Source: an uncultured Hungatella sp. (GTDB lineage: Bacteria; Bacillota; Clostridia; Lachnospirales; Lachnospiraceae). Taken from it: DNA of 52,627 nt. Positions within the stretch are counted from its first letter, which is position 1. Every line of letters begins with the position of its first letter. Shown in pieces: positions 10,670 through 29,673 of the stretch. The position numbers and the translations under genes were made by a program. The notes beneath the pieces were generated by a model that was not told the origin of the DNA, did no database searches, and was given only the letters and a program-made list of their open reading frames with translations. The stretch covers positions 1 to 52,627 of the forward strand of contig CAMUJH010000029.1 of assembly GCA_947089145.1 (NCBI GenBank). Direction: 5' to 3'.

Positions 10670-13600
10670 GGCCGTTAAAGCTTGTTTTGTCAGCATTCGG
10701 CCCTTATGCGGGAAGGGCCAGTCTGCTTTTGGAAAAGCTGGGAAACAGCGGACTGTATTTAATTACCGGAGATACCGGGGCGGGAAAGACAACGATTTTT
10801 GACGCCATTACTTATGCGCTGTACGGGGAGGCCAGCGGGGAAAGCAGGGAACCGTCCATGCTGCGCTCTCAGTACGCTGATCCTGGCACCCCCACGGAAG
10901 TGGAACTGACCTTTTCCCATGGAGGAAAAGAGTATGTCATAAAACGGAATCCGAAATATCTGCGCCCGTCAAAGCGGGGCGGGGGAATGACAGAAGTTCT
11001 CCCGGACGCACAGCTTACCTGTCCGGACAGGATCGTTACAAAAAAGAGAGAAGTGGATGCTGCCATCATAGAGATTCTGGGCATGGACAGAAACCAATTT
11101 TCCCAGATTGTCATGCTTGCCCAGGGGGATTTTAGGAAACTGCTTATGGCGGATACAAGGCAGCGGCAGGACATCTTTCGGAAGGTGTTTCAGACCCACC
11201 CCTATCAGACCCTTCAGAGACAGATAAAAGATCTGGCAGGCAAGGCATACGGCCAGTGCCAGGATGCAAAAAAAAGCGTCCGCCAGTATGTCCAGGAGAT
11301 TGTGTGCCCTGAGGAAGACCCATGTTTCCAGGATGCAAAAAAGGCCAGGGAAGGAAAACTTCCCATAAAAGATACCATGGAACTTGTGGAAAAGCTGGTG
11401 GCCCAGGATACCATGGAGGAGGAGCGGATCGGGGAGGAGCTAAAGCTCTTGGATCAGAAGCTGGCTGAGGCAAATGCGCGGCTGGGAAAAGCCGATCAGC
11501 AGGAGAAGGCCAAAAAGGCGCTGGAAGACATAATGGGGCAGGAGGAGGAAAACCGCATACGGCTTGAGGAAAAGGAGGCTGATTTTCGCCGCGAAGAGGA
11601 CAACAGGGGAAAACAGGAGGAACTTAAGAGACAGTGCGCGCTTTTGGATCAGGAACTGCCGGAGTATGACAGGCATAGAAAACTGGAAGAAGACATAAGC
11701 CTTCTGGAAAAACTTGTGAGAGACGGCCAGAAGAAAGCAGAGGAACAGGAACAGACAGCAGAACAGTGGAGAGGGCAGCTGGAGAACCTGAAAAAGGAGC
11801 AATCTGTTTTATCCGGAGCCGGAGAGCAGAAAGAAAAGCTGATCCGCAGCAGGGAGAAAGCGGAAAAGCAGAAGGAAAATTGTGTAAATCTGGAAGAAGC
11901 CAGGAGGCGGGAACAGGAAACCATTGTCAAGCTGAAAAAAGCGGAGCAGGATTTTTGCGGAGAGGAGGCAAAACAGGAAAGGCAGGAAGAGCTTAAGAAG
12001 CAGTGTGCGCTTTTGGATCAGGAGCTGCCTGAGTATGAGAAACTGGACAGGCTTTTAAAAGAAGACAGGGAATGGACAGAAGAATTAGAAAAGCTGCAGA
12101 GAGATAAAGAGGAGAAGAGACAGGAGTCAGAGGAACTTGGCCGGAGCCTGGAACATGACAGGAAAGAACAGGCTGCCTTGTCCCATGCAGGAGAACAGAG
12201 AGAAAGGCTGCTCCGCTTAAAAGAGAAAGCGGAGAAGTACAAAACAGATGGCAAAAGCCTGGAGAAATTCCGAAGCCTGGAACAAAAAGAGGCAGCGCTT
12301 TTAAAAAGGCTGGAGCAGGAATTTCAGACAGAACAGAACAAGACGGCCAGACAGGAAGACATAGGACGGCAGCTTGCCCTGCTGGAGCAGGAATTTCCCA
12401 GATATGATCAGATAGAGGAGATGAAAAAAGAGATCCGGAAATTGGAAGAGGCGCTGGAAGGGGATCAGAGAACCGCAGAGAAAAAGAAGCAGAGAGATAA
12501 GGAGCTTGAGGCAGAATTAAGCAGCCTGAAAAAAGAGAGGGATTTGTTAGCCGGGGCAGGGGAGAGAAGGGAAAGGCTCCTTGGGCAAAAGGCCCAGAAA
12601 GAAGCATACCTGGAGAACGTGAAGAAGCTGCGGGCGGATGCGGACACATATGAGGCTCTGCAGAGAGAGCTTAAGAGGCAGCAGGACCTGTACCAAAAGG
12701 CTCAGGGACATGCAGAAGCTCTGGAGAAGGTTTATTCCCGGATGAACCGGGCATTCCTGGACGGACAGGCAGGGATGCTGGCCAAAGGGCTGCAGGAAGG
12801 CGATGCCTGTCCGGTGTGCGGGGCTACCCGCCATCTGCGCCTTGCCCCGATTCCCAAAGAGGTGCCAGGAAGGGAGGAGCTGGAGCAGGCAAAGAGCGAT
12901 TATGAAAAGGCAGCGGGGCTGGCCCGTGAAGCCAGCATACAGGCCGGCGGCATAAACGGTAAGGCATCCCAGCAGGAAGAACAGCTGAGAAGACAGGCAG
13001 AGACGCTGTTTGGGCATGGGGATATTGAGAAGGCAGGACAGCAGGCCAAAGGACAGATCGTCATATGGAACGAAAAACTGGAAGAACTGGAAACACAGAT
13101 TAGAAAAGAGGAAGAGAAGGAAAAGCAGAGACAAAGGCTGGATCAGAGAATCAATGGGATAGAAGAACAGGCAAAGGCGCTGGAGCCGGAGATCTCAGCA
13201 TTAAATCAGCAGATTGCCAAGACCGAAATCCAGAAACAGTCTCTGTCTGATCAGGCTGGCAGCCTTATAAAAGAACTGCACTGTGAAAATAAAACGGAAG
13301 CAGAAAACCAGGCAAAAGCATTGGCCAGGGAACAGGAAAACCTTAAAAAGTCTTATGAACAGGCCCAGAGCGCTTACTTGGAATGCAGCAAAAGGGAAGA
13401 CGATTTAAGAAAGCGGATAGAATTTTTGCGGGAGCAGCTGGCTGGCACGGAATATTTTGAGAAGACACAAGAATCGCTGCCGATATTGGAGGAGGAGATC
13501 AGAGAACTGAAACGCAGGCTTTTGGAAGAGGAAGAGAAGGCTAAACAAAAACAGGAACTGGACAGGCAGATCCCCTGCAAAGAAGAGAGAGCCAATGAAC

Positions 13601-15006
13601 TGGAAGCGCAGTTTCAGGCGTTAAAAGAAAAAACGGATGCCGCGGAGCGAAAAAAAGAAAATCTTTCCGGACAGATTGAGATGCTGAGAAGAAAGCTGAA
13701 CTATGCCTCCAGAGGCCAGGCGGAGCAGGCTAAGGCCAGACAGAAAACAGAACTGGAGGCGCTTAAAAAGGCGTATGAAAATGCGAAGGATGCCTATGAG
13801 CGCTATACAAAGGCAAGGGAAGCCTTGGCGGTTCAGATAGAATCGCTGGAGCGCCATATGGAGAAACCGGAGTATATTGAGAAGACAAAAGAACAGATAC
13901 AGGCATTAAAAGAAGCCATAGCAGAATTGACCACACAGATTGAAAAAGAGCAGGAGAAAATCAGCCGCAGGGAACGGCTGGATACACTGATCCCAAGACA
14001 GGAGCAGGCTGTCAGACAGCTGGAAAAGGAAAACCGGGAGTTGAGGGAGCGGATTGCGACAGACAGGACAAAGAAACAGGCTTTGGAAAAACAGAGACAG
14101 GCTTTGGAGGAGAAACTTCATTATCGGAATAAAGAGGAAGCAAGACAGGAGAAAGACGCATGGATAAACCGGCTGAACTGCCTTCAGGAGGCGTACAGCC
14201 AGGCAGAAAGGGCATATCAGCAGTGTTTTAACAGGCAGACAGAATTAAAGGGCCGCATAAACTCTCTGACAGAGCAGCTTAAGCGCGAGGAACTGATATG
14301 CAAGGAGGAGGAACTGGAAAGGCAGAATGAACTGTCAGAGAGAAAACAGAAAATCAAAGAGACGGAACACGGAGTACGCTTCCGAAAGAGCACTAACAAA
14401 AATATTCTGGCCAGTATCCAAAAAAGGTCAAAAGATTTAGCCGCATTGGAGGAAAACTATGAATGGCTGTCCAACTTGTCGGATACAATCAATGGTGATC
14501 TCAACGGCAAAGGGAAAATTATGCTGGAGACTTATATCCAGACAACGTATTTTGACCGGATTGTCCGCCGGGCGAATTTAAGGCTGATGATTATGTCAGG
14601 CGGCCAGTATGAGTTTAAGCGCCTTGTGGGAGCAAGCAGCAACAGAAGCCAGGGAGGGCTGGAGCTGAATGTTGTGGATCATTATAACGGTACGGAGCGC
14701 AGCGTAAAGACCCTGTCCGGCGGAGAGTCGTTTATTGCCTCCCTGTCTCTGGCGCTGGGCCTGTCAGAAGAGATCCAGTCTTCGGCCGGGGGAATACAGA
14801 TCGATACGATGTTTGTGGACGAGGGATTCGGGAGCCTGGACGAAAATGCGCTGCAGCAGGCCTATGACGCATTGGTAAGCCAAACCGGGGACAGCCGCCT
14901 GGTGGGGATTATCTCCCATGTAAGCGAATTGAAAGAAAAGATTGATAAAAAGATTGTGATCACCAAGGAAAAAAGCGGGGGAAGCAGGGCGGAGATTCAG
15001 GTATAG
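10666..15006 (+). CDS. sbcC: SbcC ATPase with triplicated coiled-coil arms
   Basis: The Rad50/SMC-type ATPase partner of SbcD has 1446 residues; many homologues have about 900-1200. The N-terminal head carries Walker A GDTGAGKTT (35-43) and the Q-loop at QIVMLAQGDF. The C-terminal head has the signature KTLSGGES (1348-1355) and Walker B MFVDEGFGSLD (1382-1392). The zinc hook is CPVC (Cys715, Cys718). The ascending arm holds three modules with an exact 123-residue period (about 316-438, 439-561, 562-684), each with ALLxQExPxY and an AGE-like motif 50 residues later. The descending arm holds three modules with an exact 140-residue period (about 823-962, 963-1102, 1103-1242). Removing two modules per arm leaves about 920 residues. 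Confidence 0.95.
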   Translation: MRPLKLVLSAFGPYAGRASLLLEKLGNSGLYLITGDTGAGKTTIFDAITYALYGEASGESREPSMLRSQYADPGTPTEVELTFSHGGKEYVIKRNPKYLRPSKRGGGMTEVLPDAQLTCPDRIVTKKREVDAAIIEILGMDRNQFSQIVMLAQGDFRKLLMADTRQRQDIFRKVFQTHPYQTLQRQIKDLAGKAYGQCQDAKKSVRQYVQEIVCPEEDPCFQDAKKAREGKLPIKDTMELVEKLVAQDTMEEERIGEELKLLDQKLAEANARLGKADQQEKAKKALEDIMGQEEENRIRLEEKEADFRREEDNRGKQEELKRQCALLDQELPEYDRHRKLEEDISLLEKLVRDGQKKAEEQEQTAEQWRGQLENLKKEQSVLSGAGEQKEKLIRSREKAEKQKENCVNLEEARRREQETIVKLKKAEQDFCGEEAKQERQEELKKQCALLDQELPEYEKLDRLLKEDREWTEELEKLQRDKEEKRQESEELGRSLEHDRKEQAALSHAGEQRERLLRLKEKAEKYKTDGKSLEKFRSLEQKEAALLKRLEQEFQTEQNKTARQEDIGRQLALLEQEFPRYDQIEEMKKEIRKLEEALEGDQRTAEKKKQRDKELEAELSSLKKERDLLAGAGERRERLLGQKAQKEAYLENVKKLRADADTYEALQRELKRQQDLYQKAQGHAEALEKVYSRMNRAFLDGQAGMLAKGLQEGDACPVCGATRHLRLAPIPKEVPGREELEQAKSDYEKAAGLAREASIQAGGINGKASQQEEQLRRQAETLFGHGDIEKAGQQAKGQIVIWNEKLEELETQIRKEEEKEKQRQRLDQRINGIEEQAKALEPEISALNQQIAKTEIQKQSLSDQAGSLIKELHCENKTEAENQAKALAREQENLKKSYEQAQSAYLECSKREDDLRKRIEFLREQLAGTEYFEKTQESLPILEEEIRELKRRLLEEEEKAKQKQELDRQIPCKEERANELEAQFQALKEKTDAAERKKENLSGQIEMLRRKLNYASRGQAEQAKARQKTELEALKKAYENAKDAYERYTKAREALAVQIESLERHMEKPEYIEKTKEQIQALKEAIAELTTQIEKEQEKISRRERLDTLIPRQEQAVRQLEKENRELRERIATDRTKKQALEKQRQALEEKLHYRNKEEARQEKDAWINRLNCLQEAYSQAERAYQQCFNRQTELKGRINSLTEQLKREELICKEEELERQNELSERKQKIKETEHGVRFRKSTNKNILASIQKRSKDLAALEENYEWLSNLSDTINGDLNGKGKIMLETYIQTTYFDRIVRRANLRLMIMSGGQYEFKRLVGASSNRSQGGLELNVVDHYNGTERSVKTLSGGESFIASLSLALGLSEEIQSSAGGIQIDTMFVDEGFGSLDENALQQAYDALVSQTGDSRLVGIISHVSELKEKIDKKIVITKEKSGGSRAEIQV
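11611..12717 (+). repeat. Three tandem 369-bp modules in the SbcC ascending arm
   Basis: Units at about 11611-11979, 11980-12348 and 12349-12717. Anchors recur in perfect register: ALLDQELPEY at residues 325, 448 and (as ALLEQEFPRY) 571. The GAG of SGAGEQ at 384 recurs as HAG at 507 and GAG at 630. Units 1 and 2 are also very close in DNA (CAGTGYGCGCTTTTGGATCA), pointing to a later duplication than the one giving unit 3. Unit limits are arbitrary within the period. Confidence 0.85.
13132..14391 (+). repeat. Three tandem 420-bp modules in the SbcC descending arm
   Basis: Units at about 13132-13551, 13552-13971 and 13972-14391. LHCENK (871), LNYASR (1011) and LHYRNK (1151) are spaced exactly 140 residues apart. 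RLD/ELD/RLD at 824, 964 and 1104 keep the same register, as do EYFEKT (929) and EYIEKT (1069). The copies are diverged at protein level, more than ascending units 1 and 2. Confidence 0.85.
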
Positions 15007-17029: not shown

Positions 17030-17944
17030 TCATAGGAGAAGAATCCAGGACAAAAGCATGAACACCCCTGCGGACAGCAGGGCGTGAAGCAGCTTCCACA
17101 AGATATAATGGTAAAGGGACAGGCAAGGCGCTGTCAGGACGCTTTTGGTCTGGAAAAGGCCGCAGATGCCCCCCAGCACTGCTGCAAAGCACAGGAAAAG
17201 ACCCTGGGCAGGCCCCGAGAATGTGCGGGCAATGGCCTGGATGCCGGTAGTAATCTCCACCACGCCCAGCAAAACGGCCTGAATGGGGGAAGGGAGAAAG
17301 GAAATCTGGCCGATAAACCGTGCCAGAATGGAGAACAGCATAATATATCCTCCGATTTTTACCATGACTTCCAGGGAATTCATCATGGACTGGTCAAAAG
17401 ACAGATGGGGCTGTGTTTTTGGCGCCCTGATTCCGGAAGAAGACTTCACAGGGTATACTGCCTGGGAGAGAAAAGCCAGGGGGATTATGGGCAGATAGAC
17501 GGAAGCCAGCAGCACGGGGACGGGAATGGACGGGTCCATCAGAGAGGACACATAGCCCAGAAGAAACATGGGGCTTGGATGGTTGCTGATGGCCAAAAGG
17601 TATCTTCCCTCCTCCGGGGATATTTTTTCCTGGGATGCGAATTCACTGCAGGTTTTTGCTCCCATGGGATAGCCGCAGAGAAGGCCGGATACCAGTATAT
17701 AGCATCCGGCGTCAGACAGACGGAAGACTTTTCCCAGGATGGGGCGCAGCGGGGCGGTCATAAGGCGGATTCCGTCAAGGGATACGATAACATTGGAGCA
17801 GATCATAAAGGGAAGCAAGGTGGGCAGCACGGTCTGATACCACAGAAGGAGGCCGTTTCGCGCCCCTTCCAGGGAAAGGGCAGGGTGAGTCAGCAAAAGG
17901 AATAAAACTATAATCGCCGCTGCAGGCAGGATGGATTTTTTCAT
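17030..17944 (-). CDS. ylbJ: Sporulation integral membrane protein YlbJ
   Basis: A 304-residue polytopic membrane protein with about eight hydrophobic segments and two nucleoside-recognition/gate-type cores: PTLLPFMICSNVIVSL near the N-terminus and the GLLCGYPMGAKT motif, followed by ISNHPSPMFLLGYV. These are typical of YlbJ, needed for spore cortex formation in Bacillus, where ylbJ also lies beside coaD. The ATG at 17944 (MKKSIL) is preferred over a GTG at 17950. It is divergent from the M23 gene, with only 52 bp between start codons. Confidence 0.85.
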   Translation of the reverse strand: MKKSILPAAAIIVLFLLLTHPALSLEGARNGLLLWYQTVLPTLLPFMICSNVIVSLDGIRLMTAPLRPILGKVFRLSDAGCYILVSGLLCGYPMGAKTCSEFASQEKISPEEGRYLLAISNHPSPMFLLGYVSSLMDPSIPVPVLLASVYLPIIPLAFLSQAVYPVKSSSGIRAPKTQPHLSFDQSMMNSLEVMVKIGGYIMLFSILARFIGQISFLPSPIQAVLLGVVEITTGIQAIARTFSGPAQGLFLCFAAVLGGICGLFQTKSVLTAPCLSLYHYILWKLLHALLSAGVFMLLSWILLL

Positions 17945-17996
17945 AGTCACCGGAATAAGATGTTTTGTACACTATATGAGAGTAGGAGAAGGGGAT

Positions 17997-18806
17997 ATGC
18001 AGGTGGTTTTGCTGATTCTTCTGGCGGTCTTTCAGGTGATTATGACTAATTATCTTGCAGGAAATCCGGATTTTTACCAATTGGACGCCTACACTTGGGA
18101 AAGCGACCAGTTCCGCGCCATGAACATCGGGGAGAGGGCGGCTTCCATGGAGAGTCTTGATATAAGGGCCCTGACTTCCGTGATGATTGAACAGGAATAT
18201 GATCTGTCAGACATGGAAGAAGGGGAGGCCTTTCAGGAAAACAAGGCCATTGAGAACCGGAGGCCGGCGGAGTACCGGAAACTTCTTCATGCCTATGAGG
18301 CGGTGTTCCAGGATCTAAAGTATTTTCCAATCCCCAAAAGCAGCCGTCCGGAGACGCCGGATGTGACGTTTGAGAACAGCTGGATGGATAAAAGGACTTA
18401 CGGCGGGGAGAGGGGCCATGAGGGCTGTGATATTATGGGCATGGAGCGGGGAAGAGGCTTTTACCCGGTGGTCAGCATCAGCGACGGGGTGGTGGAAAAA
18501 GCCGGATGGCTGGAAAAGGGCGGATGGCGCATAGGGATTCGGACGCCGTCAGGCCTGTATCTTTACTATGCCCATTTGTATGATTACAGCAGGCAGTGGA
18601 AAGAAGGAGACACGGTGCGGGCAGGTGAGCTTCTCGGCTTTATGGGAGACTCCGGATATTCGGCGGTGGAAGGCACGGTGGGGAATTTTGACGTGCATCT
18701 CCATCTGGGCATGTATTTAAGGACAGACCATTATGAGGAACTAAGCGTGAACCCTTACTGGGTTCTTAAATATTTGGAAAAAAAGCGGCTTGTATATGGC
18801 TATTGA
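17997..18806 (+). CDS. Membrane-anchored M23-family peptidase
   Basis: With the start at 17997 (GGAGAAGGGG just upstream) the protein has 269 residues and opens with an uncleaved-type membrane anchor (VVLLILLAVFQVIMTNYLAG). The catalytic LytM/M23 domain occupies about 125-260. Zinc and catalytic residues are His141 and Asp145 in RGHEGCD, His193 in YAHLYDY, and His234/His236 in DVHLHLG. The family cuts peptidoglycan cross-bridges; beside ylbJ a role in spore envelope assembly is plausible but not shown. The reverse transcriptase gene starts only 52 bp downstream with no obvious terminator between, so read-through into it is possible. Confidence 0.88.
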   Translation: MQVVLLILLAVFQVIMTNYLAGNPDFYQLDAYTWESDQFRAMNIGERAASMESLDIRALTSVMIEQEYDLSDMEEGEAFQENKAIENRRPAEYRKLLHAYEAVFQDLKYFPIPKSSRPETPDVTFENSWMDKRTYGGERGHEGCDIMGMERGRGFYPVVSISDGVVEKAGWLEKGGWRIGIRTPSGLYLYYAHLYDYSRQWKEGDTVRAGELLGFMGDSGYSAVEGTVGNFDVHLHLGMYLRTDHYEELSVNPYWVLKYLEKKRLVYGY

Positions 18807-18858: not shown

Positions 18859-20652
18859 ATGAATATTAAATTTACAAAAGATCTGAGAGGAAGGGCGTTA
18901 AACCGGGAGATACGCCCTGTCAACATTACTCTCGAACGTTTGCTGCGCCGCCTGGATGGCGTTTCATGGGATTACAGCAGCTTAAGCTTGTATGCCCGAA
19001 ACGTGTTTGACGCATATAAATTGGACAGGATTTCTGAACAATTAAAAGGTGCTGACAAAAAACAGAGGAAAGCCATAATACGCAAACATATTTTATCGTT
19101 ATATGGCAGCGACATCGGCGATAACTGCCTGGCAGTCTACCTGATTGCCTATTGCGCAGACCAAAGCCCGGGAAAGCCCCTTCCTGAGGCAGTAAAGCTG
19201 TTTTATAAAAAGGCAGGGATAGTCAAAAAACCATACCAGATAAATGCTATCGTAAACATTGGAAAAGGGGACGGAATATTTTTAGGCATATTGGACAGTG
19301 AGGGAAATGCCGCTGATTTGGTTTTTATGAGAAAGTGGCTGTATGCGTTCACTGACAAAGTTTTCCGCAAATTAATAGAGGAGACAGAGGACGAGGAGCT
19401 TTTTGAGGACAGATTTCTAATCTTTAACCGGATCAGAAATAAACAGCTGGATTTTGGGACGCATTTAGAGGAAGGGATCATCAGACAGCAGAAGAAGATC
19501 CGCCTAATCTATAAAGTAAACAACACAGATGAAGCCATTGCGCTGAAATATCTGAAAAGGCGGCTGGATGCAGAGCTGAATATAAAATATGCGGACAGGA
19601 ACTGCATCATGAGAGAATTGTTTCCCATTATTGAGAATATTGCCTCTTTGGGAGATTTTACAATTTTCCGGTTTGATTTCAGGCATTTTTTTGAATCCGT
19701 GGAGGCGGGAAAGATTTTTGATGAATACATTGTAAATACAAATCTTCAAAGATACGAAAAGGAATTACTAAAGCAGCTTACAGAGCAGCATAGATATTGC
19801 TTTGCAGGCCTGCCTACATCCAACGCCTTTATAGAGATTATAGCAGGCAGATTCGATCAGGTTTTAAAATCAAAATTGAGAGACAGAGGCTTATTTTTTT
19901 ATTCCAGATATGTGGATGACGGCATTCTTATTTTTAATGAATATGTCGGAAAGACGGATATACAGGATATACTGGAAACCACGATCTGGGAAGTATTCCA
20001 TATGCCGTCTGTAAGATTAAACCGTGAAAAGACCAGCTATGTGACAAAGTATGGGGGAGATCTGAGGTTTAACTATTTGGGATATCAGTTTGAAAAGAGC
20101 ACAAAAGGCAGCAAAGTGAATTTTCTGTTTGGAATAGCGGATTCTAAAATAGACAAATATCAGAATAGGCTGAACAATATTATCAGGCAGTATATTGCAG
20201 ACAATAATATTGAATTATTCAGACATAGAATCCTGTACTATATTTCGAGAATCGTATTTTACACCAATATGAACTCAAGATATTCCCTGTTGGGAAAGTG
20301 GGATGTAAACGGAATAACGGAAAATTATGGGCTGTTAAGAAAATATATCGGAAATAAGAACAGGTTAACCAGAAATACGCAGATTTTTTTATTTAACGGA
20401 GTGTATGACTCCTGCGCGGCAGCCGGGCTGGTGAATAAAAGGATTCCATACTTTTTAAGGGGAGACGGAAGGGATGCGTACAGTATCGCTTACAGCATGG
20501 AGAAGAATAAAACCATCATTTTCCACCCCAATATCGGATGGAGCACAGAGTATTTAAAAAGGCAGATTGCACAGCTGGCTCCCGGAATGGATCTGAGAAA
20601 GAAATCATACAGAGAATTAAGCAGGCTGTACTATGGGATCTTAGAGCTGTAG
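18859..20652 (+). CDS. Reverse transcriptase 1 of a DRT3-like pair
   Basis: A 597-residue protein whose polymerase core lies at about 215-425. Motif A is FRFDFRHFFESV (catalytic Asp273), motif B is GLPTSNAFIEI (317-327), motif C is YVDD (351-354), and FNYLGYQF (404-411) fits motif E. About 200 residues of extra N-terminal domain and 170 of C-terminal domain match no maturase, endonuclease or integrase. Retron and group II intron features are absent. An FFES-type motif A and a second, different RT downstream match type 3 defence-associated RTs (UG3 followed by UG8). GGAGG lies 10 bases before the ATG. Codons are more A/T-ending (AGA, ATA) than in neighbours, consistent with transfer. The subtype needs a profile search. 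Confidence 0.85.
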   Translation: MNIKFTKDLRGRALNREIRPVNITLERLLRRLDGVSWDYSSLSLYARNVFDAYKLDRISEQLKGADKKQRKAIIRKHILSLYGSDIGDNCLAVYLIAYCADQSPGKPLPEAVKLFYKKAGIVKKPYQINAIVNIGKGDGIFLGILDSEGNAADLVFMRKWLYAFTDKVFRKLIEETEDEELFEDRFLIFNRIRNKQLDFGTHLEEGIIRQQKKIRLIYKVNNTDEAIALKYLKRRLDAELNIKYADRNCIMRELFPIIENIASLGDFTIFRFDFRHFFESVEAGKIFDEYIVNTNLQRYEKELLKQLTEQHRYCFAGLPTSNAFIEIIAGRFDQVLKSKLRDRGLFFYSRYVDDGILIFNEYVGKTDIQDILETTIWEVFHMPSVRLNREKTSYVTKYGGDLRFNYLGYQFEKSTKGSKVNFLFGIADSKIDKYQNRLNNIIRQYIADNNIELFRHRILYYISRIVFYTNMNSRYSLLGKWDVNGITENYGLLRKYIGNKNRLTRNTQIFLFNGVYDSCAAAGLVNKRIPYFLRGDGRDAYSIAYSMEKNKTIIFHPNIGWSTEYLKRQIAQLAPGMDLRKKSYRELSRLYYGILEL

Positions 20653-20884
20653 GGGCAAGTCCCAGACTGCCCCCGCAGTGGTTTGGCTTATAGTGTGAAT
20701 TGAAACGCTTCCGCGGGAAGGCATTCCAAATCAGTGACTAATGACAGCAGTTATCTAGCTACCTGCTGCTGCGACGGACAAAAACATATGTACGTCTCAC
20801 CGATAATGTGTGGAAATCCTATGGGATCTCCCTGCAGCAAACCTGCTACGAAAGATATTATACCACAAAAGGATGCCGTTGTAT
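20650..20884 (+). ncRNA. Candidate structured ncRNA between the two reverse transcriptases
   Basis: The 232 bp between the RT genes have no convincing gene but can fold. GGGGCA (20652-20657) pairs with TGCCCC (20668-20673). TGGTTTGG (20679-20686) pairs with CCAAATCA (20726-20733, one G-U) and encloses CTTCC-GCG-GGAAG (20708-20720). CAGCAG (20745-20750) pairs with CTGCTG (20763-20768). A short alternating TGTGTG run lies at 20807-20812 and GTGTG at 20693-20697. Several UG-type defence RTs need an adjacent ncRNA as template or scaffold, so this is the natural place for one. Ends, strand and expression are inferred. A 71-codon open frame at 20734-20949 crosses it and is thought spurious. Confidence 0.5.
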
Positions 20885-22861
20885 ATGAAAATAAAAGGGA
20901 TGAAAAGAAACAGCCTGGATATTATTATGACAGACTTAAGGCCTGTTGAGCTTCCTAAGATATTTACTCTGAAATTTTTTTACAGATACTTGTCCCAGGA
21001 CTTAAATGCCGCGAAATCTGTTGTTGCCGGGCTGAATGTTAAGCAGAAGGACCCGTTTGGAAAGGAGTGGCATGCAGCTCCTCTTAAATACCATATTATA
21101 AAGAAAAATAACGAACTGAGAGAAATGTCGCTGCCAAATCCCGTATCTATGATAGAAGTGTTCTGTTTCATAGAAAGGTATGAGAAGGAGCTGCTTGTCT
21201 ATTTGGGAAAGGACAGCTTTTCTGTGAGGCGTCATAAGAAAAACAAGTCCTTATACTATAGAAAAAGTATTGGCAATAAGCTTCTGTATGAACATATTGA
21301 TTCGGAAGACAGAAAGGCCATGCAGCTGGAGGCGGCGGGAAACTATTTTTATATAGAACCGTTCTGCAGGCTGGACAAATTCTATAAATCAGACCGATGG
21401 TTTGATCTGAACAGACGGTATAAGCATTTTGGAAAAATAGATTTCAACCGATGTTTTGACAGCATTTACACCCATGCCTATAACTGGATTATTGCAGGGA
21501 ATCCTGTTGACGCCAAGAAATATACCAATTCCCACATTTTAAGCGTTATTGACAGAATGCTGCAGAGCATGAACGGGTCCATTACAAACGGAATCGTTGT
21601 AGGGCCGGAGTTTTCAAGGGCTTTAGCTGAGATCCTGCTGCAGGCCATTGACAATGAGGTTATTCTGGAATTGGAAAATATGGGATACTTAAGAGATAAA
21701 TCCTATAATGTCTCAAGATATGTTGATGACATCTTTATATTTGCAAATTCAGATGAGGAGATCAACGTTATAATATCAAAATATGTCCAGTGCGCTGAAA
21801 AATACCATTTAAAATTAAATGAAAAAAAGCAGGAAGTAGGAAGCCTGCCAAGAGTATGGTTTGAGTGGAACCAACTGGCTGGGATATTTGTAGAAAGCTT
21901 TAACAAAAAATTTTTTTATGCTTTGGATGACATGCAGACCTATCTGGTAAAGGGCAGGAATTTATTAAAGGCAAATATAACATCTAAGATTAAAAATCAG
22001 TTTCAGGATATGATTGCCTCCAATCTTCTGTATAAGGATAAAATCGTTTCTTATGCAATGAGCACTGTATTTAATAAAATCCGGGACATTCACAGTGAGG
22101 AGGAGGATGGATACGCTTTATTCCGGGAAGGGGAAGACATAAAAACATTTCTGGGATTCGTAGATATGATATTTTATATCTACAGCTTCTCACCGACTTA
22201 CAATAATACGGAAAAGGTTGTAAGCATCATGTATCTAATTGAAAGGGAAATAGGCGAAGAAGCCTTTTCCCAGATTTTGTCTGAAATTGCGTTAAAATAT
22301 GATTACCTGTTTGACAGCAACCTGGAAGATTTGGTGAACCTTCTGCTGCTGTTTGGATGCTGCGGCGTGGAACTGAATACATATACAGAACATAAAATTA
22401 TAAAGATTATGAAAAAGAATCAGAATCCTGTTTTATGGGCTGTATTTCTCATGTATTCAAGATATAGCGAAGAGTTTCAGAAAGAAACCGCACAGTGCAT
22501 AGAAGAGAGTATCAGAAAATTCACGGCTAAAATTATTGATTTTCAGAATTTCTTTTTATATGAACATGTGTGGTGGATCTACATTTTTACAGAATGCCCC
22601 TACCTGTCAGACGGGGTGAAAGACGAAATGAACCGCATGCTGGGAAAAGTGCAGCAGACTTTAAACAAAGACACGGCAAGCTGCACAGCCAAAAAAGAGG
22701 TGATTCGGTTTTTGAAAAACCGCAATTATCCATACAAATTTATAAATTGGGATATACAGAAAGAAGAATTTTACGAAAACATTGTTTTTTCCACGTTTGA
22801 CAGGACGATTTTTAATACAAAGGGAGAAGACGGATGGGATCATGGGACCGAAGGATATTAA
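20885..22861 (+). CDS. Reverse transcriptase 2 of a DRT3-like pair
   Basis: The second RT is clearly a different family from the first. From the ATG at 20885 (AAAGGA 12 bases upstream) it has 658 residues; the frame is open back to 20810, and starts at 20900 or 20927 are possible. The polymerase core is N-terminal: motif A KIDFNRCFDSIYTHAYNW, in the Abi/UG style with SIYTH; motif B VVGPEFSRALAEILLQ; motif C SRYVDDIFIFA; then LKLNEKKQEV. About 300 residues of helical C-terminal region follow, without a recognisable nuclease. An RT with SIYTH plus a long helical tail downstream of an FFES-type RT is the expected Drt3b (UG8) position. The Asp-Asp pair is intact, so it is probably active. Confidence 0.83.
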   Translation: MKIKGMKRNSLDIIMTDLRPVELPKIFTLKFFYRYLSQDLNAAKSVVAGLNVKQKDPFGKEWHAAPLKYHIIKKNNELREMSLPNPVSMIEVFCFIERYEKELLVYLGKDSFSVRRHKKNKSLYYRKSIGNKLLYEHIDSEDRKAMQLEAAGNYFYIEPFCRLDKFYKSDRWFDLNRRYKHFGKIDFNRCFDSIYTHAYNWIIAGNPVDAKKYTNSHILSVIDRMLQSMNGSITNGIVVGPEFSRALAEILLQAIDNEVILELENMGYLRDKSYNVSRYVDDIFIFANSDEEINVIISKYVQCAEKYHLKLNEKKQEVGSLPRVWFEWNQLAGIFVESFNKKFFYALDDMQTYLVKGRNLLKANITSKIKNQFQDMIASNLLYKDKIVSYAMSTVFNKIRDIHSEEEDGYALFREGEDIKTFLGFVDMIFYIYSFSPTYNNTEKVVSIMYLIEREIGEEAFSQILSEIALKYDYLFDSNLEDLVNLLLLFGCCGVELNTYTEHKIIKIMKKNQNPVLWAVFLMYSRYSEEFQKETAQCIEESIRKFTAKIIDFQNFFLYEHVWWIYIFTECPYLSDGVKDEMNRMLGKVQQTLNKDTASCTAKKEVIRFLKNRNYPYKFINWDIQKEEFYENIVFSTFDRTIFNTKGEDGWDHGTEGY

Positions 22862-23014: not shown

Positions 23015-23695
23015 TCAGGCAATCACCTCATAGCGCAATCTGAGATACGAGTTCTCCAAAACGACACATTCCTGCAACTTCAGCACGCCTAATTTTGACA
23101 ATTCGTTTTCTGACAATAAAGACTTTCCATCAATCAAAGTGGGCGTATCCTTGCCGCCGATCAATACAGGAGCTACCACGATATCAATATAATCAATCAG
23201 CTTTTCACGAAGAAACAGTCCATTTAATGTGCCGCCGGTTTGAATCGTTATTCTCTCACAGCCATATTCTGATTTAAGTTTAAAAAGAACATCTTTCAGC
23301 GACAATTCATTTTGATATATAATATGGAGATTATCATTTTCCATATCAAACGCCGGGTGCTTCGCATTGGATGTAACCAGCACAAACTGTTTTGACAAAG
23401 CGCAAAAATAACGTATGCCATGTTCTTTTAAATGCCTGTTATCAATCACAACAAAAGAGACAGGCGTTTTATCCGGCATATCCGCTGCGTTAACACCGAT
23501 TTTAGCCTGCACCCTTCCAGAATTAACAGACCATAAATCTGTTGTCTGCTCTATCTCATAATATTGATGTAATCCCTCTTTAACCCCTGAAATTTTAGGA
23601 AAATCCTTATCCACGTCTAAACTATCCGCCGCGCCAGTGCTGATCTTGCCGTCAACAGACATCAACATAAACAAGGTAGTAACAGGCCTGTCCAT
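23015..23695 (-). CDS. RibD C-terminal/dihydrofolate-reductase-like protein
   Basis: A 226-residue protein of the RibD_C/bacterial bifunctional deaminase-reductase family, reductase part only. N-terminal TLFMLMSVDGKISTG is the typical first strand and loop; RITIQTGGTLNGLFLREKLIDYIDIVVAPVLIGGKDTPT is the NADPH-binding region and following strand. Stand-alone members reduce pterin-like or riboflavin-precursor-like compounds; the real substrate is usually unknown. It runs opposite to the RT genes. GGAGGGG lies upstream of the start. It may be a cargo gene or native. Confidence 0.82.
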   Translation of the reverse strand: MDRPVTTLFMLMSVDGKISTGAADSLDVDKDFPKISGVKEGLHQYYEIEQTTDLWSVNSGRVQAKIGVNAADMPDKTPVSFVVIDNRHLKEHGIRYFCALSKQFVLVTSNAKHPAFDMENDNLHIIYQNELSLKDVLFKLKSEYGCERITIQTGGTLNGLFLREKLIDYIDIVVAPVLIGGKDTPTLIDGKSLLSENELSKLGVLKLQECVVLENSYLRLRYEVIA

Positions 23696-23790
23696 TTTAC
23701 CCCTCCAACCGCCAATTTATATATTCCATTATAAAATCTTTATCCGCCGTCTGCAATACATATTCATAAAATCAGGAAAGTAAATATCAG

Positions 23791-23952
23791 TTAGCTAAGG
23801 CTGTCGCAGGCCCCATGGGCACCATCTCCTGTCAGGGTTCAGAATTGCCAAACGTTCCGAAGAGCCCGAAAAACAGGTCTCTTCTCCACGGCATTAATTC
23901 ACCCTGACAGGAGATGGTGCCCATGGGGCAAAAGCAGAATTCGCTTAGCTAA
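23791..23952 (+). repeat. Stem-loop element A: 29-bp perfect stem, 62-nt loop
   Basis: The 29-nt arm at 23810-23838 (begins GCCCCATGGG, ends TCAGGGT) is matched without mismatch by 23901-23929. The 62-nt loop (23839-23900) contains TTCCGAAGAGCC and TCTCTTCTCCA. An outer inverted repeat, TTAGCTAAG (23791-23799) and CTTAGCTAA (23944-23952), frames it. The loop aligns with that of element B on the opposite strand, while the stem differs from B at 11 of 29 pairs, every one compensated. Confidence 0.85.
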
Positions 23953-24003
23953 GTGATATTGTGTGCCTAATTCACCGGAGGCATGGGAATTTCTGTCTTT
24001 GTT

Positions 24004-24047: not shown

Positions 24048-24096
24048 AAGAAACTCATAAGACAGCGCCCTCCTATATCAGGCGAATCCTGTTTTT

Positions 24097-24215
24097 GCCC
24101 GAGAGAAGCCGTTTCCTGCGCGGGTGAATTTTGCTATGGAGAAGAGACTTGCTTTTCAGGCTCTTCGGAATGTCCAGCAAACCTGAACCCGCGCAGGAAA
24201 CGGCTTCTCTCGGGC
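24097..24215 (-). repeat. Stem-loop element B: 29-bp perfect stem, 61-nt loop
   Basis: Arms at 24097-24125 (begins GCCCGAGAGA, ends GCGGGT) and 24187-24215 pair perfectly. The 61-nt loop (24126-24186), read on the minus strand, carries TTCCGAAGAGCCTGAAAA and TCTCTTCTCCA, homologous to the loop of element A. Both elements have 29-bp stems starting GCCC and ending GGGT with TCCTG inside. B lacks the outer TTAGCTAAG repeat. Confidence 0.85.
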
Positions 24216-24375: not shown

Positions 24376-25824
24376 ATGGGTGCGCAGGAAAAAAACATGG
24401 CAGATTTGCTTCCAGAAGAATTCAAGAAAGAGATGCAGCAGCTTCTTGGGCCGGAATACACCCAATACCTGGAAAGCTTTCAAAATCCTGCAAGCAGAGG
24501 GCTGAGGGTGAACACGCTTAAGTGGACCAGAGATGAGTGCATGGACAAGCTTCCCTGCCAGACAGAACCTGTCCCCTGGATTCCCAACGGGCTTTTTTAT
24601 GAGGAGCAGGTGCGGCTGTCCAGAGATCCCTATTATTTTGCGGGCTTGTACTATCTTCAGGAACCAAGCGCCATGACTCCCGCATCCCTTCTTCCAGTGG
24701 AGCCAGGTGACATGGTTCTGGATATCTGCGCCGCGCCAGGCGGCAAAAGCACGGAACTGGGCGCCAGGCTTATGGGAAAGGGAATGCTGGTGGCCAATGA
24801 CATCAGCAATTCCAGGGCAAAGGCCCTGCTGAAAAACCTGGAGCTGTTGGGCATATCCAACATGTGCGTTGTCAGTGAACCGCCGGAAAGGCTTGGCAGA
24901 GCATTTCCCGACTTTTTTGATAAGATTCTGATCGATGCGCCGTGTTCCGGGGAGGGCATGTTTCGGAAAGACAGAGACATGGTGAAGGCCTGGAAAGAGA
25001 AAGGCCCTCAGTACTACAGCAGAATTCAGCGGGAGATTGCAGGATGGGCAGTGGGGATGCTGAAAGCGGGAGGGTATCTTATGTATTCCACATGCACCTT
25101 TTCCGTCATGGAGAACGAAGGGACAATTCAGTGGCTTCTGGATGAATTTCCGCAGATGGAGCTGGTGCCTCTTAAAGGTTTTGAGGGGGCGGACAGGGGA
25201 AGGGGCCTTGAAGGCTGCATCAGGCTGTTTCCCCACAAAATCCGGGGGGAGGGGCATTTTGCGGCTCTCCTTCGGAAAAAGGCGGGAAGCGGACAAGAGG
25301 GGCAGGGCTTAAAGCGGGAAGACGAAACCTGCCGGAGGCAGAAAGGGGAGGGCTCTAGAAAAGCCGGCGGGAAGAAACCAGCCACGGCACAAAACAAAGA
25401 GAAAGAACGGAACCGGGAACTGTCAGCTTTTTTAAAGGAAACCAAAATCTGCTGGGATGAGTCCCGGATTGTGGTAAAGAATGACATGGTTTATTATCTG
25501 CCGGAAGGCCTGCCGGCAGATACAGGGCTGCGTTTTCTGCGGACAGGGCTGTGGATGGGGACCCTGAAAAAGGGGCGGTTTGAGCCCAGCCAGGCCATGG
25601 CCATGGTTTTAAGCCAAAAGCTGTACTCCAACTGCGTTTCTTTTGGAAGGGAAGACCCAAGAGTGATCCGGTACCTGAAAGGCGAAACCATCAGCCTGGA
25701 ACAAGGCGAGGCCCCGGTTAAGGGATGGTGCCTGATATGCACAGACGGATTTGCACTGGGATTTGGAAAGGGTAACGGAATGACAATAAAAAATAAATAC
25801 TATGCCGGATGGCGGTGGCAGTGA
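24376..25824 (+). CDS. RsmF-like rRNA (cytosine-C5)-methyltransferase
   Basis: The 482-residue protein belongs to the NOL1/NOP2/Sun family, which methylates cytosine-5 in rRNA or tRNA with S-adenosylmethionine. LDICAAPGGKSTEL is the SAM site, DAPCSGEGMF holds one conserved cysteine and YSTCTFS the catalytic one. The tail (about 330-480) is an RsmF-type C-terminal/PUA-like domain, reached through a charged Lys/Gly-rich linker (about 295-345) that looks disordered. AGGAG lies nine bases before the ATG. It overlaps the pseudouridine synthase gene by TGATG, so both belong to one RNA-modification operon. Confidence 0.9.
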   Translation: MGAQEKNMADLLPEEFKKEMQQLLGPEYTQYLESFQNPASRGLRVNTLKWTRDECMDKLPCQTEPVPWIPNGLFYEEQVRLSRDPYYFAGLYYLQEPSAMTPASLLPVEPGDMVLDICAAPGGKSTELGARLMGKGMLVANDISNSRAKALLKNLELLGISNMCVVSEPPERLGRAFPDFFDKILIDAPCSGEGMFRKDRDMVKAWKEKGPQYYSRIQREIAGWAVGMLKAGGYLMYSTCTFSVMENEGTIQWLLDEFPQMELVPLKGFEGADRGRGLEGCIRLFPHKIRGEGHFAALLRKKAGSGQEGQGLKREDETCRRQKGEGSRKAGGKKPATAQNKEKERNRELSAFLKETKICWDESRIVVKNDMVYYLPEGLPADTGLRFLRTGLWMGTLKKGRFEPSQAMAMVLSQKLYSNCVSFGREDPRVIRYLKGETISLEQGEAPVKGWCLICTDGFALGFGKGNGMTIKNKYYAGWRWQ

Positions 25825-26633: not shown

Positions 26634-26745
26634 ATAAATGAGAGAAGTCCCTTTTGGGGAGAAGAGGGAAATTGATAAATCCTTAACAGCCTGAATGCGC
26701 CTTGGCAGGGAACGTGGAAAAAGAAGAAAAAGGGATCTGACGATT

Positions 26746-27726
26746 ATGAGACAGAAAAAGATAAGCGGGCGTCCTGAGGCATGCACCTCCTGCGGCGGCA
26801 GGCTGGAGCAGAGGGACCCGTATACCTATGAATGTACATCCTGCGGGAGAAAATATTACATTTCCGCAGACCGCACCCACAGGGTTTCGGTTCGTTTGTC
26901 TGCCGGGAAGATTATTTTAATCTGTTCCCTGGCAGCTATTGCGGTAACCGGAGCAGCAGTGGCGGGATATCAGTATTATACAAGCCGCCTGGTGCAGTCA
27001 GCCAGCCGGTTTTGCGTGGCCTTTCGGGACTTTCTTATGGAGGCATATGGGAAACCTGTTGCGGAGATCGGGGAAGAGGATCTGCAGAAGATAAAATATC
27101 TGAAAATAGAGAGGGACAAGGAATATAAGTTTACCTACAGTTTTGAGGATTACTACGATTACAGGGATAAAGACGCATATGAAGAAACCCTTCGAACCAT
27201 AGAGGTCCATGCGCCGAAAGAGGATTTTTCTCCTACGAACCTACAGTATTTTACAGGCATTACCAGGCTTGAGCTGTATACGGACGTGTGGGAAAACTAT
27301 ATTCTTCCGGAGGAAAATGCGGTGAGAAGCATTTACTGCCTGGACGGCCTGTCTAAATCAGGAACTCCCCGGTTTTTCACAAGGGCCAATCCGGATACAC
27401 TGGAGGAAGTGGCCATTATGGAAGCAGAGAACCTGGAAGACTTCTCTTTTATGGAAAACTTAAAAGGCGTAAAGACTCTGCTGCTGCACAAGGCCAGGCT
27501 GAAAAGCGGGGAAATGTTTTTGGGATTTGACAGCCTGGAGAATCTGGTTCTGTATCAGGTGGACATTGAGGAGGATAAAGCAGCAGATATCGCGGAGGGG
27601 CTGCTTTCCCTTCCGTCCATGAAGTATTTCCGCATGGAAGGGAAAGCGGCATGGTATATTGAAGATGAGAAGTGGGAGCAGTGGGAGAAAAAATATGACG
27701 GGAAGATCATGTTAAGCAGGGAATAA
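26746..27726 (+). CDS. Zinc-ribbon, single-TM, LRR-like membrane protein (short paralogue)
   Basis: Starting at 26746 (AAAAGGGAT upstream) the protein has 326 residues. A cytoplasmic zinc ribbon uses Cys13, Cys16, Cys30 and Cys33 (CTSCGG, CTSCGR). One membrane segment spans about 55-75 (IILICSLAAIAVTGAAVAGY). The outside part begins with a domain shared with the next gene (YSFEDYYDYRDKDAYEETL; FTGITRLELYTDVWENYILPE) and ends with leucine-rich-repeat-like strands (LEEVAIMEAENLEDFSFMEN). I know no function for this architecture. It is one half of a tandem paralogue pair. Confidence 0.7.
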   Translation: MRQKKISGRPEACTSCGGRLEQRDPYTYECTSCGRKYYISADRTHRVSVRLSAGKIILICSLAAIAVTGAAVAGYQYYTSRLVQSASRFCVAFRDFLMEAYGKPVAEIGEEDLQKIKYLKIERDKEYKFTYSFEDYYDYRDKDAYEETLRTIEVHAPKEDFSPTNLQYFTGITRLELYTDVWENYILPEENAVRSIYCLDGLSKSGTPRFFTRANPDTLEEVAIMEAENLEDFSFMENLKGVKTLLLHKARLKSGEMFLGFDSLENLVLYQVDIEEDKAADIAEGLLSLPSMKYFRMEGKAAWYIEDEKWEQWEKKYDGKIMLSRE

Positions 27727-27873: not shown

Positions 27874-29673
27874 ATGGAAAGACAGACAGAGGACGGACTG
27901 CGCAGGGAGGGGTATGTGATCCGCACTTCCAATGACAGGGAGAAACCGGAACTTTTGGAACTGCAGTGCAGAAACTGCGGCGGCTTTCTGGAACTGGTGG
28001 ACAGGACCCATGCAGTGTGTCCGTACTGCGGGCAAAAGTACCTGATTGATGAGGCCAAGGGAACGATCATCAATGTCCAGGTAGATTACAGCGGCAATGA
28101 TGAGATGGTGGAGGCAGTCAACAGCACAAAAAAGACGCTGATCGTGTTTTTGATCATAGCGGCGGTTATAGCTGCCGTTGTGCTGGCGTTTAATATAGCT
28201 GCACGGATGTCTGTGTTCTCTACATCCGATGAAGACGGGCCGGCGGATGAAAACGGAATTCTTCTTCGGATTTTCTGCAAGGATATTTTCGGAAAAGAGT
28301 ATGAGGACATTACAGAAGAAGAGTTTGCATCTGTCAAATACATCCGGTGCGCTTACGAGAGGGAAGGCAGCGAGACGTTTAATGTGATCTTCTACAGCTT
28401 TACAGATTATCAGGACTGCGAAAGCCAGGAAGAGTTTCAGGAAACCATTAAAAAATGGACTTACCGGACGAAAATGGTCAGCTGGCCTTCGGATTATACC
28501 ATGTTTACCGGCCTTACCAGAATCGACAACACCGACTCAGTGTGGCTGTCCCTTGTGAAATTTTCCCCTGACAGCAGGATATCCTATGTGGATACGGACG
28601 ACAGGCTGGACACGGTTGCAAATGTGCTGAATCCGGAATATGTGAAGGTGCTGCACATCGGCATAATGGGAAATAACCTGCAGGATATCGGCCAGTTTAA
28701 AAATCTGGAGGAGCTGGACGTGGATACCAACCTGTCAAGCAGGGAGGCGGACATAAGCGGCATCAGCCAGTGCAGCCGCTTAAAAAGCTTAAGGCTGCGG
28801 TGCGGGGAGGGGTATAAGGGGCTGGAAAGCTTAAAAGATCTGAAGGAACTAAGGAGCCTGTATATCGACAAAATGCCGGCGTCGGAATGGGGGTTTTTAA
28901 AGGATCTGCCGCAGCTGGAGGAACTTAGCATCTACACAGGGGAGGATGCAGACTTGTCTGCACTAAAGCTGCTTCCCAGCCTGAGGAAAGTGAATTTTCT
29001 GGATCAGTGCTATATTCTGCCTGAAGAATTGGAAAAGCTTAGGGGAGTGGAAGATCTGACAATTGCGGTGAATCAGGAAGAGTGCCTGGAGATTCTGGGG
29101 AGCTTTGACAGCCTGAGAGCGCTGGATGTGCATATGGCGATCCATGAGTACCAGGTTCCTGTGGACGTGTCGCCTTTGGCTGGCCTTAAGGGGCTGGAAA
29201 AGCTTTATGTGGATAATTTCTGGGGATGCCAGTATACGGGAGTGGAGCAGCTTCTCAATCTTCCCAAACTGAAAATATTTCGTCTGGGACAGGGAGTGGG
29301 AAGCGACGCGGAGCTTCTCATGGATACGGAAGCACTCAGCGGAAGCCAGGTTTTAGAGGAACTGGGAATGATAAACTGCACGGTAACAGACATAGGGACA
29401 GGGGCGCAGCAGGATTTTGGGTTTGTCGCAGAGTTTCCGGGACTGAAAAGACTGTATCTGGATGAGTGCGGCCTGGATGATATTTCTTTTGTCTCAGGGC
29501 TTAAAGATTTGAGAGCCTGCAGCTTTATGGATAATGATATCACGGATCTGTCCCCTCTTTTGGAATGTAAAAGGCTGGGCGTGGTTTCCGTGGATCGGGA
29601 GGCGGCGGCAGGAATTGAATTTCCGGGCGACGTGATGGTCAATACAGAGTCTTTTGTGAAAATTTATGAGTGA
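27874..29673 (+). CDS. Zinc-ribbon, single-TM, leucine-rich-repeat membrane protein (long paralogue)
   Basis: 599 residues with the same plan as the upstream gene: zinc ribbon (Cys32, Cys35, Cys49, Cys52 in CRNCGG and CPYCGQ), transmembrane helix at about 89-110 (LIVFLIIAAVIAAVVLAFNI), an extracellular domain with FYSFTDYQDCESQEEF and FTGLTRIDNTDSVWLSLVKF, then about 370 residues of leucine-rich repeats (NLEELDVDTNL, RLKSLRLRCG, ELRSLYIDKM, LKRLYLDECGLDDISFV). The LRRs could bind a cell-wall or protein ligand while the ribbon sits in the cytoplasm. Signal transfer is a guess. GAAAGGAAAGAGAAGGG precedes the ATG. Confidence 0.75.
   Translation: MERQTEDGLRREGYVIRTSNDREKPELLELQCRNCGGFLELVDRTHAVCPYCGQKYLIDEAKGTIINVQVDYSGNDEMVEAVNSTKKTLIVFLIIAAVIAAVVLAFNIAARMSVFSTSDEDGPADENGILLRIFCKDIFGKEYEDITEEEFASVKYIRCAYEREGSETFNVIFYSFTDYQDCESQEEFQETIKKWTYRTKMVSWPSDYTMFTGLTRIDNTDSVWLSLVKFSPDSRISYVDTDDRLDTVANVLNPEYVKVLHIGIMGNNLQDIGQFKNLEELDVDTNLSSREADISGISQCSRLKSLRLRCGEGYKGLESLKDLKELRSLYIDKMPASEWGFLKDLPQLEELSIYTGEDADLSALKLLPSLRKVNFLDQCYILPEELEKLRGVEDLTIAVNQEECLEILGSFDSLRALDVHMAIHEYQVPVDVSPLAGLKGLEKLYVDNFWGCQYTGVEQLLNLPKLKIFRLGQGVGSDAELLMDTEALSGSQVLEELGMINCTVTDIGTGAQQDFGFVAEFPGLKRLYLDECGLDDISFVSGLKDLRACSFMDNDITDLSPLLECKRLGVVSVDREAAAGIEFPGDVMVNTESFVKIYE

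Follow-up and report, generated by a model that had tools for sequence, protein, structure and literature searches.

A divergent DRT3 reverse transcriptase pair from an uncultured Hungatella with a probable template-RNA gene inverted between its two polymerase genes

Two reverse transcriptase (RT) genes, RT1 and RT2, stand in tandem in a 52,627-nucleotide (nt) stretch of DNA from an uncultured Hungatella sp. (GenBank assembly GCA_947089145.1, contig CAMUJH010000029.1; the whole stretch is called the window here), and they raise the question of where the RNA partner of such a pair is encoded. In the type 3 defence-associated RT system (DRT3) of E. coli, as described in the sections of PMC13174585 used here, Drt3a uses a 5'-ACACAC-3' RNA loop as its template for poly(dTdG), Drt3b synthesizes poly(dCdA) starting from Tyr666, E22 and R241 serving as base gates and R71 as a stacking residue, and the noncoding RNA (ncRNA) sits downstream of drt3b. 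The published RNA model was seeded with the 250 nt that follow E. coli-like operons and scanned over 1 kilobase (kb) on either side of Drt3b (PMC13174585, same sections). Glu26 and Arg253, named as Drt3b residues in PMC13213688, fit the numbering of the other structure. Anti-phage activity, a poly(GT/AC) duplex and a 6:6:6 complex are further marks of DRT3. Profile, structure and tree comparisons support the view that the window carries a real DRT3 system belonging to a divergent clade. We consider it likely that in this clade the template-RNA gene has been relocated and inverted, lying between the two RT genes on the opposite strand, and that the system makes a poly(dTdG)/poly(dCdA) duplex for defence. 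The element in the gap, absent from the preliminary description of the locus, is its most interesting part; the DRT3 identity is ordinary for a specialist, and the predicted inverted RNA gene and an N-terminal domain of RT1 are the apparent novelties. Coordinates are collected in Table 1.

We compared the gap in the 10 intact loci of the clade, namely the window, L002, L003, L092 (also L004), L093 (also L005), L094 (also L006), L011, L012, L021 and L022; the broken locus L007 and the weak matches L008-L010 were kept outside this set, and L002 and genome G419, which look like one contig (19,709 bases each), were counted once. Nine of the loci fall into subgroup A (window, L002, L003), subgroup B (L004, L006, L011) and subgroup C (L005, L021, L022). 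The spacing between drt3a and drt3b ranges from 140 to 289 nt; in the window it is 232 nt measured to ATG 20885, in agreement with the tandem arrangement on one strand, about 230 nt apart, of the preliminary description. The antisense strand of the gap carries CACAC or ACACA in all 10 loci (ACACA in nine, CACAC in L094) and the + strand carries ACACA in none, the chance expectation of at least one ACACA in a gap being 10 to 19%. Conservation of the gap equals or exceeds that of the RT genes: between the window and L003 it is 71.7% identical, compared with 63.1% for RT1 and 70.5% for RT2, 42.5% and 45.2% at their third codon positions, and 14.9% in the 150 nt downstream. An RNA model of subgroup A matched the host assembly, which is 87% complete, once, at the DRT3 locus; a search of the gap against plasmids gave no match. 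Because the GTG at 20810, from which RT2 was listed (20810-22861; 683 amino acids (aa)), lies inside this conserved element, it is an unlikely start of drt3b, and the conserved ATG 20885 (658 aa), or TTG 20879 after AAAGGA, is probably the better one.

An element placed directly before drt3b, with a promoter overlapping the start codon, could instead be purely regulatory (a leader, an attenuator or an antisense regulator of drt3b), the template RNA then being encoded elsewhere or absent, and a CACAC does occur 25 nt downstream of drt3b in the window. Against this stand the antisense motif in all 10 gaps and the single match of the RNA model in the host assembly. The published place downstream of drt3b was ruled out as the site of the ncRNA, since that stretch is not conserved (the 150 nt after drt3b of the window are 28.5% identical even to L002) and CACAC or ACACA occurs within 250 nt on the + strand in three of the 10 loci, leaving seven without it. 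We therefore regard a regulatory role alone as unlikely. By comparison, all 20 downstream-type loci examined, some of them near copies, have CACAC or ACACA on the + strand no more than 420 nt past drt3b; where the contig holds both genes, drt3a and drt3b overlap or are separated by about 10 nt at most. We treat the apparent lack of a downstream ncRNA as the mark of a variant, the downstream place being a description of the systems studied so far and not a demand of the chemistry.

Several results for the RNA weigh against the reading of the gap as a template-RNA gene. The 3' hairpin of the window is not followed by a U-run, and the model of one subgroup misses the other subgroups. Three models were built, for subgroup C, subgroup A and a downstream-type group, and at E below 0.01 they found only their own source sequences, plus the downstream-type locus L024 (E 5e-4). 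Further matches were at chance level: L007 on the minus strand (E 0.11) and a short + strand piece in L003 with the subgroup A model, and short + strand pieces in L093 and L022 with the subgroup C model. The downstream-type model likewise reached the clade at chance level only (best E 0.38, L092 minus strand); its silence is uninformative because it misses most loci of its own kind.

The strand of the putative RNA was examined by promoter scoring, folding and covariation. An antisense promoter-like site lies over the start codon of drt3b in all 10 loci, reading TTGACA-17-TATAAT in L012 and TTGACT-17-TATAAT in L004, and in four loci the A of the ATG is the last base of the -35 box. The mean score of these sites was 11.05, compared with an average of 8.5 in 300 dinucleotide-shuffled sets that never exceeded 9.2, although this is not a clean p-value because the place was picked after viewing and the loci are related, falling into about four subgroups. 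In all 10 loci the antisense strand had the lower folding energy, and in nine of 10 the lower z-score; for the window, the z-scores of the minimum free energy (MFE) were -4.6 on the minus and -2.3 on the plus strand. Consensus folding with RNAalifold gave -62.6 (minus) versus -45.5 kcal/mol (plus) for subgroup A and -55.6 versus -42.0 kcal/mol for subgroup C. In the minus structure of subgroup A 95.7% of cells were paired, and seven pairs changed on both sides, compared with 2.7 in shuffles; two of these belong to the eight pairs of the stem-loop in front of CACACA, as judged from three sequences. The support from these changes is modest because the structure was derived from the same three sequences. 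In the individual folds of L005, L022, L011 and L003 the stem preceding the motif bears a GNRA or UUCG tetraloop on the minus strand, and subgroup C has 19 G-U pairs on the minus versus five on the plus strand, A-C pairs being alike.

Not all of these measures favour the antisense strand. The window taken alone has 13 promoter-like sites where 12.4 are expected. With other ends the antisense strand was favoured in nine of 10 loci, L004 folding slightly better on the + strand, and the z-scores of L012 were about equal (-3.4 minus, -3.5 plus). RNAalifold energies of subgroup B were nearly equal (-12.9 minus, -11.8 plus). Pairs changed on both sides numbered nine in the plus versus seven in the minus structure for subgroup A and eight versus 10 for subgroup C, and the G-U/A-C counts of subgroup A (23/3 minus, 27/6 plus) favour neither strand.

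These results bear on a strand-swapped DRT3, in which the RNA would be read rightwards and its UGUGUG copied into poly(dCdA) by RT1, with RT2 making poly(dTdG). A UGUGUG-type motif is indeed present on the + strand of the gap, within the operon mRNA, and the + strand of the window beats its own shuffles in folding. RT2, however, retains the gates for A and C, so that RT1 and RT2 would end up producing one and the same strand; the lower folding energy, the promoter-like site and the tetraloops all sit on the minus strand. We consider the swapped arrangement very unlikely, and a sense-strand UGUGUG template was set aside on the grounds of the gates, the antisense promoter-like site and the better antisense fold. 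An antisense template is favoured because the Drt3b gates predict a poly(dCdA) partner strand, which needs CACACA and not UGUGUG as the template.

The gates were located in RT2, for which the best PADLOC family was Drt3b (6.8e-129; runner-up Drt6, 4e-39). Among NCBIfam models Drt3b topped the list with 281 bits, below the equivalog cut-off of 350, and the top PDB match was strong (2.4e-40), to a chain deposited as Drt3b (9z6y/9z6z); 26cz, whose deposited name is RNA-directed DNA polymerase, is by residue count this same E. coli Drt3b. Counting by hand along phmmer alignments, and numbering from ATG 20885, we found that the published E22, R71 and R241 of E. coli align with E22, R79 and R245 of the window, and that the catalytic residues D186, D281 and D282 are kept. 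Across 25 aligned Drt3b proteins neither arginine varies, and the first column always holds E or D. RT2 is predicted, by analogy, to be a protein-primed, protein-templated poly(dCdA) synthase. A point against this concerns priming: the position of the published priming tyrosine (Y666) is Phe in the clade. The C-terminal tails of the window, L002 and L003 differ, yet all end in Tyr (Y658 in the window); in the other members KNY, KKY or KRY precedes a tail that has a Ser close to its end, save for L012, which ends in KNSY, so that the Ser is found in six of the seven (L092, L093, L094, L011, L012, L021, L022). With Phe at the published site and tails differing within the clade, Tyr658 as the primer is a guess.

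RT1 was likewise closest to Drt3a in PADLOC (4.5e-40; top differently named family, 6.2e-13) and in NCBIfam (112 bits, cut-off 200), and its top PDB match was to the chain deposited as Drt3a (9z6y/9z6z), weak at E 1.2e-4. A fold search with the full RT1 model brought up a wide range of RTs, headed by DRT9. We predict that RT1 is an RNA-templated poly(dTdG) synthase, by analogy with Drt3a. The long stretch ahead of its core, put at roughly 200 residues in the preliminary description, measures about 160-190 residues before the part that aligns with Drt3a and is confined to the window, L002 and L003 among 25 aligned Drt3a proteins. The window copy had no Pfam match at E<=5 and the L003 copy a sub-threshold PASTA match (E 0.17); a plasmid search gave no match, and the extension modelled alone had a mean predicted local distance difference test score (pLDDT) of 53, the models being of low confidence. 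That this domain fits no known family counts against a plain DRT3 assignment.

The preliminary description had proposed DRT3 or a divergent relative from two RTs with YVDD and unlike motif A (FFES type and SIYTH type; FRHFFES in RT1 and CFDSIYTH in RT2 on inspection), and had noted the lack of maturase or retron features. These observations hold: both open reading frames are intact, RVT_1 is the sole Pfam domain in each, the profile search that it recommended returned the Drt3a (UG3-type) and Drt3b (UG8-type) families as the best for the two proteins, and RT_II-A, retron and group II models trail far behind them in score; no model of a diversity-generating retroelement was among the profile matches listed. 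Because both proteins fall under the NCBIfam equivalog cut-offs they are divergent members, which fits the proposed divergent relative, as does their place in a clade apart. These same features and the additional RT1 domain might be taken for a two-RT system other than DRT3 (a new UG pair, or a retron or intron remnant), to which we give hardly any credence given that both genes best match the Drt3 pair in the same order, retain the gate residues and enclose the DRT3 template motif.

In unrooted trees of Drt3a and of Drt3b (25 rows each), the 10 antisense-type loci were separated from 15 downstream-type loci with support 100/100. L035, L036, L039 and L042, whose Drt3b is short or incomplete, and L043-L051, whose RT matches are weak, entered neither the downstream-type count nor the trees; L026, L028, L033, L034 and L013 were counted among the 20 downstream-type loci and left outside the trees as near copies of L025, as incomplete or, for L013, because drt3b is annotated in two pieces. 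Members of the clade came from genomes and one phage of Firmicutes and from unassigned viral contigs. The phage, Erysipelothrix phage SE-1 (L012, 1919-5426), carries the pair in a genome with an integrase, annotated as hypothetical protein and DNA binding protein. Some loci lie beside other defence genes: type I restriction genes in L021 and L022, candidate defence genes in L011 and a TIR-Mrr protein in L094. In L093 the gene that follows drt3b had no defence-family match. The closest relative found, L002, is from an uncultured Hungatella (Lachnospiraceae) metagenome-assembled genome, its RT2 being 92% identical. L003, with an RT2 75% identical, stands on a 5-kb contig labelled Erysipelotrichaceae, by horizontal transfer or mis-binning, and L007 (genome G340) is a relative of the same clade with an internal stop and broken frames.

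Within the genus RT1 was present in two of 26 genomes, its own and G419, a third match at 22% identity being another RT; the pair is patchy in occurrence and not distributed like a housekeeping gene. A family scan gave a strong Drt3b match (E 7e-86 or better) in five of 397 genomes, own included, and three further weak ones (E about 1e-36 to 1e-40), and a draw across the phylum gave one in 398, the own genome. A second family scan and two genus scans revealed no further system, and viral contigs searched with RT1 and with a 28-base pattern yielded none. The upstream M23 gene has a close match in 23 of the 26 congeneric genomes. It is followed by DRT3 in two and by an rsmF-like gene (24376-25824 in the window) in 18; two have neither in the stretch seen and one is at a contig end. 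Because most congeners have M23 directly beside the rsmF-like gene, DRT3 and the RibD-like gene form an insertion. In two further congeners (L058/L082 and L060/L084) M23 is followed by a gene other than DRT3 or rsmF, with ispG-like and polC-like genes (named by eye) in L082; the M23 junction may be variable within the genus.

Together, the data point to the following scheme. drt3a and drt3b would be transcribed rightwards, and a third gene would give an RNA of about 210 nt, read leftwards from the promoter over the drt3b start codon to near the drt3a stop codon. Its CACACA loop would template the synthesis of poly(dTdG) by RT1, RT2, needing no nucleic acid template, would synthesize poly(dCdA) by means of base gates E22 and R245 and probably with Tyr658 as primer, and the two strands would anneal to a duplex. 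AddAB is the expected clostridial counterpart of RecBCD, and AddA is encoded in the host genome. We infer that in an uninfected cell AddAB would destroy the duplex and that a phage that blocks AddAB would let it accumulate until growth stops, in the manner of the RecBCD guard described for E. coli DRT3 in the sections of PMC13174585 used here. Since the predicted antisense RNA would overlap the drt3a stop codon and its promoter-like site lies on the drt3b start codon, expression of template and polymerase may interfere. Tentatively, the nested gene could act as a switch in which the template and the second polymerase oppose each other, balancing the two strand synthases and perhaps flipped by phage that disturb the host RNA polymerase; we offer this as a possibility that we hold somewhat doubtful.

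Table 1. Features of the DRT3 locus, in window coordinates
Feature	Position	Strand	Basis or remark
drt3a-like reverse transcriptase RT1, 597 aa	18859..20652	+	PADLOC Drt3a; aligned with 24 other Drt3a; fold model with confident RT core
RT1 N-terminal helical extension, about 160-190 aa, no known family	18859..19428	+	Alignment; low-confidence models
drt3b-like reverse transcriptase RT2, 658 aa	20885..22861	+	PADLOC Drt3b; residues mapped by phmmer and 25-row alignment
Predicted ncRNA, ends approximate	20640..20851	-	MFE z-score; gap conservation; model match at one place in assembly
Sigma-70-like promoter of predicted ncRNA, TATACA-17-TATAAT with TG extension	20857..20885	-	-35 box (20880-20885) overlaps drt3b start codon
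8-base-pair stem-loop directly 5' of template	20812..20831	-	Last base is first C of CACACA; 8/8 pairs kept in three sequences
Predicted template CACACA, unpaired part ACACA	20807..20812	-	CACAC invariant in nine-row gap alignment (L012 left out)
Predicted ncRNA 3' hairpin, overlaps drt3a stop codon	20647..20678	-	Four pairs changed on both sides
M23 peptidase, upstream flank	17931..18806		Pfam
RibD_C protein, downstream flank	23015..23695	-	Pfam

The two flanking genes of Table 1 are the M23 peptidase and the RibD-like gene between which the pair had been described as wedged. Searches of the window for tRNA and tmRNA genes and for Rfam families at gathering scores came back empty. The genes sbcD and sbcC (9533-15006) precede the DRT3 insertion by a few genes, probably by chance; duplex DNA as made by DRT3 would be a nuclease substrate. 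Downstream lies a 178-nt palindromic repeat (23783-23960) with a diverged second copy adjoining (24082-24215). A BLAST search of the host genome with the repeat gave 66 matches, many being the two orientations of one palindrome, and it looks like a dispersed family resembling miniature inverted-repeat transposable elements (MITEs) or repetitive extragenic palindromes (REPs). Two adjoining genes (26695-27726 and 27874-29673) have similar starts, with a zinc ribbon and a membrane segment, and are possibly paralogues.

DRT3 is a recent system and a striking one in that one of the two enzymes produces a DNA repeat of fixed sequence with no nucleic acid to copy, and a deep clade with kept gates and a relocated, inverted RNA gene would show which parts of such a system are fixed (the gates and the CACAC-type loop) and which are free (the place and strand of the RNA gene, the RNA body and the C-terminal tail). 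An RNA this diverged can escape a model of the published type, as it escaped the downstream-type model here, and the clade would offer a natural test of the dose balance between template and polymerase. We found no report of an antisense DRT3 RNA, or of the N-terminal domain of RT1, in the literature at the level of titles and abstract openings, the primary DRT3 paper (Deng et al., Science) being outside that scope; the word antisense is absent from the text of PMC13174585, and in the review PMC13314766 it refers to oligonucleotide drugs only.

Set beside known systems, the window is closest to EcoDRT3 (PMC13174585, as excerpted; PDB 9z6y, 9z6z), with which it shares a pair of RTs from the same families and in the same order, the gate residues E22/R71/R241 and, as predicted, a template motif of the ACACAC kind. 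It differs in that the ncRNA of EcoDRT3 lies downstream of drt3b whereas the predicted RNA of the window lies between the genes in antisense, and in the 232-nt gap, the extra N-terminal domain of RT1 and the different Drt3b tail. Seven clade mates (L092, L093, L094, L011, L012, L021 and L022) share the antisense element, the start-codon promoter and the template motif with the window; unlike it, they have no N-terminal extension, a shorter predicted RNA (except L012) and another Drt3b tail. DRT9 and DRT10, in the outline given by the same sections of PMC13174585, resemble the system in combining an RT with an ncRNA that has a short templating loop and in producing repeat cDNA, and differ in having a single RT and other products.

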